In this document: positions 1,640-32,987 of the stretch, in pieces
Layout: each line of letters starts with the position of its first letter
How positions within the stretch are numbered: position 1 is the stretch's first letter
Assembly (NCBI GenBank): GCA_030064935.1
Contig: JASJEA010000008.1
Coordinates: 1 to 32,987, forward strand
Length of the DNA stretch: 32,987 nt
Direction: 5' to 3'
From: Crocosphaera sp.
GTDB taxonomy: Bacteria > Cyanobacteriota > Cyanobacteriia > Cyanobacteriales > Microcystaceae
Translations under genes and position numbers: made by a program
Notes under the pieces: model-generated
What the model was told of the DNA's origin: nothing
Databases searched by the model: none
The model's input: only the letters and a program-made list of their open reading frames with translations

Positions 1640-3352
1640 TTAAAAGAGAGGAACCTCTTCTCGATCGCAATTTCTAGATTCAGCCTCAGCGTTAACTGTA
1701 TCAAAATCGGGAATACATTTATTTTTCATGTAATTAATATAATTTTCACGGGCTGTTGCACATTTATACTCATCCCAATGGCAATAGGTTTTCAGGATAT
1801 GGATGAGGCTATCTAGGACTTGTAGACCATAATTAGCTTCCATTGCGATCGCTGTACGACGACGGGCAATATCCACCAGAGTTTGAGCGTATTCGTAACG
1901 TACAGCATAAACTACTTGAGCTTTAATATCGGGTAACTCAGAGGTAATTAATTCCCCTAACTTCGGTTCTGATTTAGTTAAAGCCAAAACATCCAACGCT
2001 TTTGCCCCATAGACTTTAAATAAATGGTCAATAGAGGAACTGGCAATCTTTTCTTGATAATCTTTCACTGCTTCTTGAATGCGAGGATCATTAGCTAAGA
2101 TGGCACCGGGTAGGGGTTGAGCTTCTGTAGGACAAGGGGGTGCAGTTTTGCCTAATTTTTTATAGACTTTATCGACAATTTCTTCTCCCACTTTACGATA
2201 GGTGGTTAACTTACCTCCAATGAGGGAAATAAGGTTTTTGACACCTTCTTTGCTGTGGTCAAAGAGAATATGACTACGGGTGATACTTCCAGCTTTTTTG
2301 CCTTGGGCGTTGGGTAAAGGGCGTACCCCAGAGTAGGTAAATTTAACGTCATCACGGCGGAGATTGGCGTTGGGGATAATATAGTTGGTTTCTTGTAATA
2401 AGTAGTCAATTTCTTCGTTATCCGCCTTCAATTTATCGGGAGTTCCCTCAAAGAGATAGTCTGTGGTGCCAATCAAATACATTCCCAACCAAGGGATAAT
2501 AAAGAAAGGTCTGCCATCGGACTTGGCTTCGACATATAAACTGGTATCTGGTGCACCAGGAAAAGGAGCGACAACAATATGACTGCCTTTGGTGCCACCG
2601 ATTTTCTGTGTTTTACCAATGGGTGCATTTTCACCATCTCTAATCCCCAACTTACAGACATAATCGACCCAAGGACCAGAAGTGTTGATAACCATACACT
2701 TATCTTGGCCTTTAACTGTAAATTCTTCTCCTGTGAGGACATCTTTACAGGTTAAATGGGTAACTTTATCCCCTTGACGGTTCAATTGTGTGACTTTAAC
2801 GTAGTTTAATACTGTTGCTCCTGCTTTATCAGCATCAATGATGTTTTCTAAACAGAGTCTTTCAGCATAGGTGACTTGACCATCATAATATTGCGCCCCA
2901 CCCACTAATCCCTCAGCATCCAGGGAAGGAAAAAGTTGTTTAAATTTAGCACTAGAGAGCATTCTATGGGAAGGAACGGTTTTATCCGCACTTAAAATGT
3001 CATAGAGACACATTCCAGCCCAAATTTTCCAGTAAGGGCGGGAACGCTCTTTATAAATGGGAATGGTTAAAAGTAGGGGTTTAACCAAATGAGGGGCAGT
3101 GTGTAAGAGGATTTCTCTTTCTCTTAGAGACTCCCGTACTAAGGGAACTTCAAAGTATTCTAGATAACGTAAACCCCCATGAATGAGACGAGTGGACCAA
3201 CTAGAAGTCCCCCCGGCAAAGTCTCCTTTTTCGATGAGAATGGTTTTTAAGCCTCGTAAAGCCGCATCCCGTGCAACTGCGGCACCATTGACTCCGCCAC
3301 CAATCACAATTAGGTCGTAGGTTGTTTGTTGAATGGATTGAAAATCTCGCAC
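1640..3352 (-). CDS. glpD: FAD-dependent glycerol-3-phosphate dehydrogenase
   Basis: Oxidises sn-glycerol-3-phosphate to dihydroxyacetone phosphate and passes electrons to the quinone pool at the membrane. The 570-residue protein begins with a Rossmann FAD motif (IGGGVNG, about residues 17-23), followed by the family signatures GGTSSWSTRLIHGGLRYLE (about 48-66) and a substrate-domain region rich in conserved Gly and Arg (for example GTKGSH and SGVRPLP). The C-terminal DAO_C-type helical domain is present (about 415-545). Length is typical. The start is GTG at 3352, since the FAD motif lies close to the N terminus and no ATG precedes it; the Shine-Dalgarno is weak. It lies 138 nt downstream of mcrC on the same strand but is probably an independent housekeeping gene. 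Confidence 0.95.
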   Translation of the reverse strand: MRDFQSIQQTTYDLIVIGGGVNGAAVARDAALRGLKTILIEKGDFAGGTSSWSTRLIHGGLRYLEYFEVPLVRESLREREILLHTAPHLVKPLLLTIPIYKERSRPYWKIWAGMCLYDILSADKTVPSHRMLSSAKFKQLFPSLDAEGLVGGAQYYDGQVTYAERLCLENIIDADKAGATVLNYVKVTQLNRQGDKVTHLTCKDVLTGEEFTVKGQDKCMVINTSGPWVDYVCKLGIRDGENAPIGKTQKIGGTKGSHIVVAPFPGAPDTSLYVEAKSDGRPFFIIPWLGMYLIGTTDYLFEGTPDKLKADNEEIDYLLQETNYIIPNANLRRDDVKFTYSGVRPLPNAQGKKAGSITRSHILFDHSKEGVKNLISLIGGKLTTYRKVGEEIVDKVYKKLGKTAPPCPTEAQPLPGAILANDPRIQEAVKDYQEKIASSSIDHLFKVYGAKALDVLALTKSEPKLGELITSELPDIKAQVVYAVRYEYAQTLVDIARRRTAIAMEANYGLQVLDSLIHILKTYCHWDEYKCATARENYINYMKNKCIPDFDTVNAEAESRNCDREEVPLF

Positions 3353-3490
3353 GATTCTTAGATTTGATTTAGTTGTCTTTCATCTAATTTAGCGAGATTT
3401 TTTGATTATTTAAACCTTTGAGTGGAGTCTGCGCTTTCTTAAGCAAAACTTCAAGAACAAGAAATGGGCAAATACTTTCCCTATACACTA

Positions 3491-4657
3491 TTAGTCATCA
3501 AATATTAATTGTTGTAAAAAGCTATTTCCTGCTGTTTCTATATCTTTATCTAAGCAAAACTCTATATTACGAAGATAAATATTCCTTATTTTATCAGTAA
3601 CAGTATTTTTGATAGTCGGTGTAATGAGAATCCCATGATCACAATTTTGTTCAAAGGCATAAGTAATGATTTGATAGATGTCATTTTGGGTGATTTCTGT
3701 TTTATATTTCGTATCCAGTACATACAAATTTTGTTCTGTCTTTTGATGGTAGATAATTAAATCAATTTTGAAACTAAAATTATCGTATTTAACGCGATGT
3801 TGTGTTTTTATTCCTAAGTGTGAGGGAAGATGAATTTTTAACCATGCTGCGACAAATTTTTCATACAGTTGATTCATATTTACCAAAAAAGGTAGACTGT
3901 TATAGTTTCCTTGTTCATGACTCGGTGTTGTATTGTCTAAAAAGAAGCGACAGAGGGAATGTAAACAGTGATAATCTTGGTTGAAACGGTTATATTTTCG
4001 GTTGATACAATCATTGGCTGTAAAGGGTAATAGGGTTAGATAACCTTGTAAGGCGTGATAAACTTTTCTCATCAAAATACGGGTGTTTTCGTGACAGGTT
4101 TCTTGACGACTGATGATATATATTGTCCACAGTAAAATTTGATTATCTTCTATGTCTTGAGTAAATTTATCATAATGACAAGTTAGCTTAGTTTTCCAGG
4201 GATATTTCGCCATCGTCTTAATATCTATTTTTCCTTTGACATAAGTTAACGCTTGTGAATGTTTTATATAAGTTGAATAAAGTCCTTTTTGGATACGGTT
4301 TAAGATACGATGAGCCAATATAGTTGCTAAACGGTTATAAAATTCTGGCAAGCTATCACAAGTCATTAAACCGTCTAAAAATTGAAAACTTTTGAGATTA
4401 TAAGCATACTCTAACATCTTAAAAATATTAGTAATAGGAACTTTCGGTTTAATGTGAAAATTCCAATCATTATTAATAGGGATATAACCTACCCATCCTT
4501 GGGAAGTAATTTCCCATTTATCGCCTTGTTTGGTATATTTTGGTTCTACGTTTAATTTCTTATTATATTTATCCTTGAGTTGATCAATAATCTCTTGTGG
4601 AATTTGACTACGGGCAATATTAAAGGGTTTATATTCAATTAGGTTTATTGTATTCAT
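3491..4657 (-). CDS. mcrC: McrC-type nuclease subunit of a McrBC restriction system
   Basis: McrC is the endonuclease partner of the McrB GTPase; the complex cleaves DNA carrying modified cytosines. The 388-residue protein has an N-terminal McrB-contacting region (about 1-150, with TSQGWVGYI near 51-59), a helical middle and a C-terminal PD-(D/E)xK nuclease domain. The likely catalytic residues are Asp299 (FKIDLII), Asp315 and Lys317 (LDTKYK), with Glu265 a possible further ligand; all are intact. It lies downstream of mcrB with an unusual gap of 300 nt, whereas these genes are normally adjacent or overlapping. That gap holds a decayed repeat element, so co-expression with mcrB is uncertain. 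Local DNA is more AT-rich than glpD, which suggests acquisition by transfer. Confidence 0.85.
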   Translation of the reverse strand: MNTINLIEYKPFNIARSQIPQEIIDQLKDKYNKKLNVEPKYTKQGDKWEITSQGWVGYIPINNDWNFHIKPKVPITNIFKMLEYAYNLKSFQFLDGLMTCDSLPEFYNRLATILAHRILNRIQKGLYSTYIKHSQALTYVKGKIDIKTMAKYPWKTKLTCHYDKFTQDIEDNQILLWTIYIISRQETCHENTRILMRKVYHALQGYLTLLPFTANDCINRKYNRFNQDYHCLHSLCRFFLDNTTPSHEQGNYNSLPFLVNMNQLYEKFVAAWLKIHLPSHLGIKTQHRVKYDNFSFKIDLIIYHQKTEQNLYVLDTKYKTEITQNDIYQIITYAFEQNCDHGILITPTIKNTVTDKIRNIYLRNIEFCLDKDIETAGNSFLQQLIFDD

Positions 4658-31658: not shown

Positions 31659-32315
31659 TCAGAGCAACACTTCTAGAGTTGAAGCCACAACTCGATGATT
31701 GGTGTCGTCTCGCAATTGTACTAACGCAGCCCTAGCCTTGGGAGCTTCAAAAATTCCTAAAACTCTAGCAACTTGGGCTCTAACCGCTACTATTTCACTG
31801 ATTGATAGCTCAACTAGTATCTCAATTGCTTCCGACTCTAAAGGTGTTCCCTTTAATTTCCGTAAATAAGAAATCGATGCCAATTGTACCGTCAGATCAT
31901 CCCCTTCTAATCCCCATTGAGAAAGCTGTAGAAAAACATCAGGGGAACCCATTTCTTCTATTGCGGCGAAGATGCTTTGTCGCAACAACCAGTGAGATTC
32001 GTCTCTAAAAAGTTCCATCAAATGGGGAATGGCTTTTTCTCCATACTTAGCGAGGGAATTAGCCGCTTCGGCTTTGACGTTGGGATCTCTATCATTCTCA
32101 ATCAAATTGAGCAGGACATCAAAACCTTCATCACTCAGTTTATGTCCTAAACCCTTTGCTACAAAGGAACGGATCACAAACTCTTTGTCATACATTATTT
32201 GTTTGAGTAGGGGAACAACGACATTCGCTGGGTGATTCCTTAGCTCCACAATCGCTTTGAGGCGATTTTGAGGATTGGGATTCTCAAGGTTTGCTTTGAT
32301 CTGATTTATTTCCAT
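31659..32315 (-). CDS. HEAT-repeat protein, PBS-lyase-like type
   Basis: A 218-residue protein built of about six or seven HEAT/PBS-type repeats of about 30 residues, each with the pattern A-x-x-L. Examples are NRLKAIVELRNHPANVVVPLLK (one helix pair), FVIRSFVAKGLG, NVKAEAANSLAKYGEKAIPHLMELF and AVRAQVARVLG. There is no membrane segment. Such proteins are phycobilin lyase subunits or scaffolds, or assembly factors such as IaiH, which binds IscA in Synechocystis. I cannot choose between these from sequence alone; the absence of a nearby phycobilisome gene argues against a lyase subunit. GAGGG precedes the ATG. Confidence 0.8.
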   Translation of the reverse strand: MEINQIKANLENPNPQNRLKAIVELRNHPANVVVPLLKQIMYDKEFVIRSFVAKGLGHKLSDEGFDVLLNLIENDRDPNVKAEAANSLAKYGEKAIPHLMELFRDESHWLLRQSIFAAIEEMGSPDVFLQLSQWGLEGDDLTVQLASISYLRKLKGTPLESEAIEILVELSISEIVAVRAQVARVLGIFEAPKARAALVQLRDDTNHRVVASTLEVLL

Positions 32316-32443
32316 AATTTCAGTACCCTCTAATGTTTGAGCATCAACTTGCTTGGACAGCTTTTTATGAACTAATGTAAATTAATGTAAATTATTATTA
32401 AAATTATAGCGTTAAATTCTTTAATCATGCACCAAGAGTATGT

Positions 32444-32517
32444 GTGAGCATCTTGCTCACTCGCTGTAAAAATAGCAGGCAGGATGCTTGCACTGCCGGA
32501 AATCTAATGCACGCTCA
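32444..32517. repeat. Paired palindromes, cyanobacterial intergenic repeat
   Basis: GTGAGCA-TCT-TGCTCAC (32444-32460) is a 7-bp hairpin. It is followed by a GCAGG-rich second palindrome, GGCAGGATGC with TGCACTGCC, at about 32481-32500. The pair resembles the GAGCATCTTGCTC plus GGATGC type repeat found between cyanobacterial genes. No gene is present in 32316-32987. Confidence 0.4.
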
Positions 32518-32536
32518 TGGAAACAGACCACTACTA

Positions 32537-32585
32537 GCGATCGCTTTTTCAACTATTGCGCAACACTAGCAGTTCTCAAAATCTA
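32537..32585. repeat. HIP1-headed structured repeat, copy 1 (diverged)
   Basis: The first of three related copies, opening with the HIP1 octamer GCGATCGC and T5. It matches copies 2 and 3 with a few substitutions (for example CTATTGCGCAAC versus CTGTTGCGCAAC) up to CAGTTCTCAAAAT, after which the sequence differs. Confidence 0.75.
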
Positions 32586-32627
32586 TAGCACTACGCATTA
32601 AGGGAGGGGACATTTTTCTTTTCCCTG

Positions 32628-32657
32628 TTATATAACCTGTTATAACAGGTTATATAA
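32628..32657. repeat. Perfect 30-bp palindrome
   Basis: The left arm TTATATAACCTGTTA is followed immediately by its exact complement, TAACAGGTTATATAA. The only loop would be the central turn, so it suits a homodimeric DNA-binding protein or a cruciform. It contains no open frame. Confidence 0.8.
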
Positions 32658-32817
32658 GTTGAGATTTCAACGGGAGATGGTCAATCAGAATGAGCGAATT
32701 ACCGATCCCTCAAGTTGGAGGCTTGAAACAAGGAAAATTCCTCGCCATCCCTCGATCGCTTTTCATCCCCTTGAAAGAGGAGGCTTGGAACCCTTTTTTT
32801 CGGTCAGATGTTATTGT

Positions 32818-32882
32818 GCGATCGCTTTTTCAACTGTTGCGCAACAATAGCAGTTCTCAAAATTTAGAAATGAGCTTATTTA
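32818..32882. repeat. HIP1-headed structured repeat, copy 2
   Basis: A 65-bp unit: GCGATCGC, T5, then the perfect palindrome GTTGCGCAAC (32836-32845) inside a larger inverted pair, AACTG (32832-32836) with CAGTT (32851-32855). It then runs into TCTCAAAATTTAGAAATGAG and CTTATTTA. It differs from copy 3 by one base. Confidence 0.8.
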
Positions 32883-32922
32883 CTCTAGTGCTAGAGTTTT
32901 AAGTTTGAGTCCCCAGATAAAT

Positions 32923-32987
32923 GCGATCGCTTTTTCAACTGTTGCGCAACAATAGCAGTTCTCAAAATTTAGGAATGAGCTTATTTA
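32923..32987. repeat. HIP1-headed structured repeat, copy 3 (runs to window end)
   Basis: Same 65-bp unit as copy 2 with one substitution (AGGAATG versus AGAAATG). The offset between the two starts is 105 bp. The window ends within or at the end of the unit, so the array may continue to the right. Confidence 0.8.

Follow-up and report, generated by a model that had tools for sequence, protein, structure and literature searches.

Several kinds of small repeat described in bacteria bear likenesses to the locus examined here. Elhai and colleagues reportedly described, in 2008, very small mobile repeated elements of cyanobacteria, about 21-27 bp long, in Nostoc. For BIME/REP systems, an associated RAYT transposase gene is a criterion. 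Transposition of the IS200/IS605 type has as its features a preferred left flank, a conserved right end and no target duplication. According to excerpts of the published accounts, BIMEs contain alternating REPs (PMC2817692), HIP1 is over-represented and has been linked with methyltransferases (PMC4390886), and the genomes of Microcystis and Crocosphaera watsonii are rich in repeats (there, repeats over 1000 bases; PMC2442094).

The window, by which we mean the whole stretch of 32,987 nucleotides that was analysed, is all of contig C242 of a Crocosphaera genome of 4.76 Mb in 319 contigs (G000), and was compared with eight congeners (G001 to G008). At its right end an earlier note had described three copies of a unit of about 65 bp. 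We consider it fairly probable that these copies belong to an inherited, intergenic, non-coding repeat, mainly of Crocosphaera, that expands and contracts in place, and no title describing this repeat family was found in the part of the literature that was covered. The features of the array and its surroundings are:

31659-32315, minus strand: neighbouring gene, encoding a HEAT-repeat protein (protein scanned for domains)
32536-32601, plus strand: repeat unit copy 1, with a strongly conserved 49 bp at 32537-32585 and HIP1 at 32537-32544
32586-32683, plus strand: first part of linker type A, also found on contig C307
32628-32657, strandless: 30-bp palindrome within linker A, containing the piece TATAACCTGTTATAAC
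32684-32806, plus strand: nested 123-bp interspersed element, with left flank GGTCA and right end CGGTCA
32807-32816, plus strand: remainder of linker A past the insertion
32817-32882, plus strand: repeat unit copy 2
32883-32921, plus strand: linker type B (short), containing CTCTAGTGCTAGAG
32922-32987, plus strand: repeat unit copy 3, with the contig end directly after it

The three copies are as the earlier note had them, and each of two core patterns has three matches in the window compared with none in 100 shuffles. Between copies 2 and 3 there is a single difference in 66 bases, and their offset is 105 bp, again as described; copy 1 is 79% identical over 66 positions and starts 281 bp ahead of copy 2. 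The internal layout that had been proposed for all three, with GCGATCGC, a T5 run and GTTGCGCAAC inside AACTG/CAGTT arms, holds for copies 2 and 3, whereas copy 1 has ATTGCGCAAC and AACTA. Contig C242 ends where the window ends, and this cuts the array short. The last 14 bases of C242 are the first 14 of reverse-complemented C307, which carries two further units, and positions 32869-32921 recur as an identical stretch at the end of C307. The 14-base overlap is compatible with a join of the two contigs but, because the sequence is repetitive, is no proof of one. A CRISPR-like reading of the array was dropped, as a linker is common to the two contigs. The motif GTGAGCATCTTGCTCAC lies ahead of copy 1 (32440-32465) and is also found on C304 and on contig C198 of G007.

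The family extends well beyond the window. A blastn search with copies 2 and 3 against their own genome gave 32 matches; the 21 that pass E <= 1.1e-4 are situated on nine contigs (C242, C307, C120, C121, C299, C163, C100, C304 and C239). C120 holds nine units, mostly spaced 97-101 bp apart, and in four of the nine contigs (C242, C307, C299 and C163) units are found at the contig end. A sequence-only model of 58 positions was built from 37 units of G000, G001, G002 and G004 (alignment A1, which uses 37 of the 53 units listed by script). At E <= 0.05 the model has 64 matches in G000, which excludes a family of only three copies, and among the congeners 56 in G001, 30 in G007, 21 in G002, 15 in G003, 12 in G008, 9 in G004, 7 in G005 and 4 in G006; in each genome the search scored 150 first-look candidates out of about 2900 to 4300, and the counts are approximate in either direction, as the model is biased toward its source genomes and weak matches include partial and coding ones. 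We took counts from this model and not from the bare 18-mer core, which has 86 strand hits compared with one in the control, because many places of the 18-mer fall in ORFs: in 20 further regions of G000, 17 of 26 places were inside ORFs of at least 240 nt.

When a single unit was compared with 39 genomes by blastn (E <= 0.001), matches were obtained in G000, G001, G002, G004 and G033, a genome of another family; this last match falls within a 371-aa ORF and was rejected as a unit, as were core matches in G010 and G029, which also fall within ORFs. For 21 genomes from outside Crocosphaera, one locus apiece was scored with the model, and the best match was one of 29.4 bits in G016, which belongs to the same family and another genus (locus L095, 1499-1531, on contig C1). 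The match is a partial unit with the palindrome and a GACTCCCAAAAA tail, and sits between apparent genes, although an opposite-strand 190-aa ORF overlaps part of it. Given this likely unit, the description of the family as genus-restricted was dropped; to judge from the sequence matches, the family is found mainly, and perhaps not solely, in Crocosphaera. Plasmid and phage collections yielded zero matches.

The core of each unit measures about 45-58 bp, linkers that vary in length connect one core to the next, and the majority consensus of the 37 units reads AGCGATCGC-n-TTTTTAACTGTTGCGCTACAGTA-n-CAGTTCTCAAAAT. Spacings within arrays are often 64-65 or 92-105 bp, and a spacing of 62-68 bp characterizes a subgroup comprising C194 (G000), C54 of G001 and C198 of G007. 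All units point in the same direction in each of 20 multi-copy loci (75 units), which may be 18 arrays, as C242 and C307 may be one and likewise C299 and C163; this table omits loci with a single copy, hits of lower score, and the weaker matches that the same palindromes give on the opposite strand. Mean identity is 0.816 within groups (53 pairs) and 0.600 between groups (613 pairs), with C242 and C307 counted as one group. We also found that 75 of 77 strong hits in 28 loci are outside ORFs of at least 100 codons (the 77 being those of at least 27 bits, minus one L184 hit, among 102 hits from 36 chosen sources); of the two exceptions, one on C121 overlaps the end of an ORF and one on C120 overlaps the start of an ORF of 128 codons.

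Upstream of a 608-aa ORF (96% identical), contig C54 of G001 has eight units and contig C154 of G003 shows four, although the latter contig ends 58 bp past its last unit and the count of four may therefore be low. The many copies, the head-to-tail order, the greater likeness within arrays and this apparent difference in unit number beside the same gene uphold the word 'amplifying' in the earlier note, with the contig end taking weight from the comparison of unit numbers. We infer that unequal recombination or slippage between direct copies would make arrays grow and shrink, that new places would be seeded rarely, and that the arrays would need no function. One unit of the G003 array is split by a hairpin-like insertion of about 90 bp with TTAG on both sides (L265, 2330-2835). 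Near another shared ORF, contig C85 of G001 has one copy and contig C198 of G007 has nine, with a differing spacer.

It is possible, but unlikely, that the unit is instead a small mobile element, moved by a transposase acting in trans in the manner of REPs or MITEs, with tandem arrays as a by-product. The earlier note had taken it for mobile or amplifying, and its places vary between species. A single unit stands isolated on C312, and the C121 array starts at the stop codon of the preceding gene. For five places in G000, namely those next to the window's HEAT gene and next to genes that we take to be glgA, truB, porin and rbfA, the model (E <= 0.05) found no unit in 33 loci of relatives, including the loci of the HEAT gene's relatives in three congeners. 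These gene names, and hisG, were recognised by eye and are presumptive, the proteins scanned for domains being HEAT and TamB only. The five genes (HEAT, glgA, truB, porin and rbfA) were found in 3, 6, 8, 7 and 8 of the 8 congeners, respectively, with the porin belonging to a multi-copy family (71-81% matches) of uncertain orthology, and one porin locus reaching only 143 bp past the gene.

Because the neighbouring sequence differs at most of the five places, however, gains there are not assignable to transposition of the unit, and rearrangement may be their cause. The comparison turned up no cleanly empty site that lacks just one unit, neighbours differing at most of the places compared, nor do units have a constant flank. 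By eye, arrays start and stop in differing parts of the unit. A single copy can, moreover, be inherited in place: G001 and G008 have one in common after the same 559-aa ORF (95% identical), with an alignable spacer. As the sequence upstream of rbfA differs among relatives also, we make no claim of a link between arrays and synteny breaks. Contigs C198 (L264) and C201 (L271) of G007 have in common a 322-aa ORF (99% identical), but the side of this ORF on which the units lie is not the same in the two.

What looks mobile in the window is the element nested within its array. The linker that follows copy 1 is longer than its counterpart at the matching unit of C307 by exactly 123 bases (32684-32806), and the spacing of copies 1 and 2 is 281 bp, as opposed to 158 bp on C307, because of this insertion. 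In G000 we found 59 matching pieces at at least 40 places, the window's included, among the 40 of 187 candidates that were scored. Thirty of the 40 places were read, giving 29 distinct copies (L241 repeats its neighbour's copy), 25 of which were aligned. The right end is CGGTCA in 20 of the 29 distinct copies and GTCA in 26 of them, and GTCA forms the left flank in 14 of the 23 copies whose left end was located. The left flank is frequently unlike the right end, which speaks against target duplication. Copies are 123 to 180 bp long, mostly 130-180 bp (one mis-set length of 193 excepted), that of the window being shortened, and folding gave a z score of -3.0 in one copy and, in a second copy folded on both strands, scores of -1.2 and -1.5. 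From its ends and flanks, the element is perhaps a non-autonomous single-strand transposon. At a later time the array of the window received this 123-bp insertion from a different, probably transposable, element family. Two layers that appear as one in the raw letters can be told apart: the tandem repeat and, within it, a small element that is probably mobile. Hairpin loops of the element occur in both orientations, as GAGGAAACCTC and GAGGTTTCCTC (L216-L244).

The repeat also differs from its earlier description as a unit that uses HIP1 as its head. Allowing at most one mismatch to GCGATCGC, HIP1 lies only on the 5' side of 17 of the 37 units, only on the 3' side of 10, on both sides of three and on neither side of seven, and a fixed head therefore fails as a rule. 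Exact or one-mismatch HIP1 is nevertheless found beside 30 of the 37 units, compared with 6.8% of random 68-nt pieces (drawn from ten of the same loci, arrays included), and the window contains 13 HIP1 sites against 0.14 expected from base composition. HIP1 often neighbours the unit without being its fixed head; with the palindromes it would be a frequent component and not an end used by an enzyme, and we caution that HIP1 beside a repeat should not be read as a functional end.

Three other contigs of G000, C23 (L139), C29 (L140) and C221 (L141), carry otherwise different tandem arrays, repeating about every 198 bp and each reaching a contig end, that contain TTGCGCAACAGT-like, TATAACCTGTTATAAC-like and HIP1-like pieces, as does the window family. 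TATAACCTGTTATAAC itself recurs in the C23 and C221 arrays and a variant of it on C29. Since different array families of one genome share pieces, short palindromes (HIP1, AACTGTTGCGCAACAGTT and TATAACCTGTTATAAC) could be modules that replace one another, start tandem arrays and promote local duplication, an idea we hold to be doubtful. We likewise think it improbable, on present sequence comparisons, that copies of the core palindrome matter as sites of methylation or of binding, for example by a chromosome-organising protein or a regulator. Such a site would fit the strong conservation of the core letters and the presence of TTGCGCAACAGT or close variants, together with TATAACCTGTTATAAC, in the 198-bp-period arrays. 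It fits poorly with the spread of model matches within a single genus, where one species has 4 and another 64, with the lack of a fixed neighbour gene, and with common variants, such as TTGCGCTACAG, that disrupt the palindrome.

The earlier note had also called the repeat structured, which the folding results do not sustain. Folded one at a time, units score no better than shuffles (z from 0.24 to 0.84), consensus folding of the units with RNAalifold predicted zero pairs, and in the palindrome hairpin 69.9% of cells are paired compared with 69.8% in shuffles. For the AACTG/CAGTT arms, none of 500 shuffles reached the observed cells paired and covariation score, and 2, 12 and 144 of 500 reached the values of three other measures; kinship among sequences can exceed shuffles in this way without structure. 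No Rfam family matched at its gathering score, the matches lying far below it at E 0.3 to 1.9. Promoter-like sites in the region are at chance level (2, compared with 1.8 expected), and there are two terminator-like sites (0.6 expected, sd 0.9), one of them within linker A. Although the inverted arms, which beat shuffles in part of the measures, and the terminator-like site are what a transcribed structured RNA (a small RNA or cis-regulatory element) might show, the fold scores, the lack of consensus pairs and of an Rfam match, and the chance-level promoters make such an RNA very improbable.

The explanation we prefer is an inherited repeat, situated between genes, whose arrays lengthen and shorten in place. 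Several points count against it: the G003 count may be too low, being taken 58 bp from a contig end, and the model counts are approximate; the copy common to G001 and G008 could reflect selection; the conservation of the core exceeds what neutral filler might show; the AACTG/CAGTT arms are paired in more cells than in any of the 500 shuffles; and linker A holds a terminator-like site. Repeats of this family are places where Crocosphaera assemblies break, and they may serve as a strain marker.

Compared with known systems, the nested element may resemble non-autonomous IS200/IS605 elements in its left flank, its right end and the lack of evidence of duplication. HIP1 accompanies most units; it differs from them in being frequent by itself, and in lying on a varying side or being absent. 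Like BIMEs and REPs, the units are short, intergenic and palindromic and occur in mosaics with other short motifs, but they run in one direction without alternation, and the palindrome that BIMEs keep as a hairpin pairs here no better than in shuffles and has no RNAalifold pair. With the elements of Elhai and colleagues the family has in common that it is cyanobacterial, intergenic, small and dispersed, whereas its core is longer, at 45-58 bp, and arranged in arrays. The repeat is an ordinary kind of bacterial repeat: as in bacterial minisatellites or VNTRs, units are head-to-tail, more alike within than between loci and homogenised per locus, and unit number may vary beside the same gene in two species (with the caveat of the contig end); the Crocosphaera family differs from these in being dispersed over many loci.
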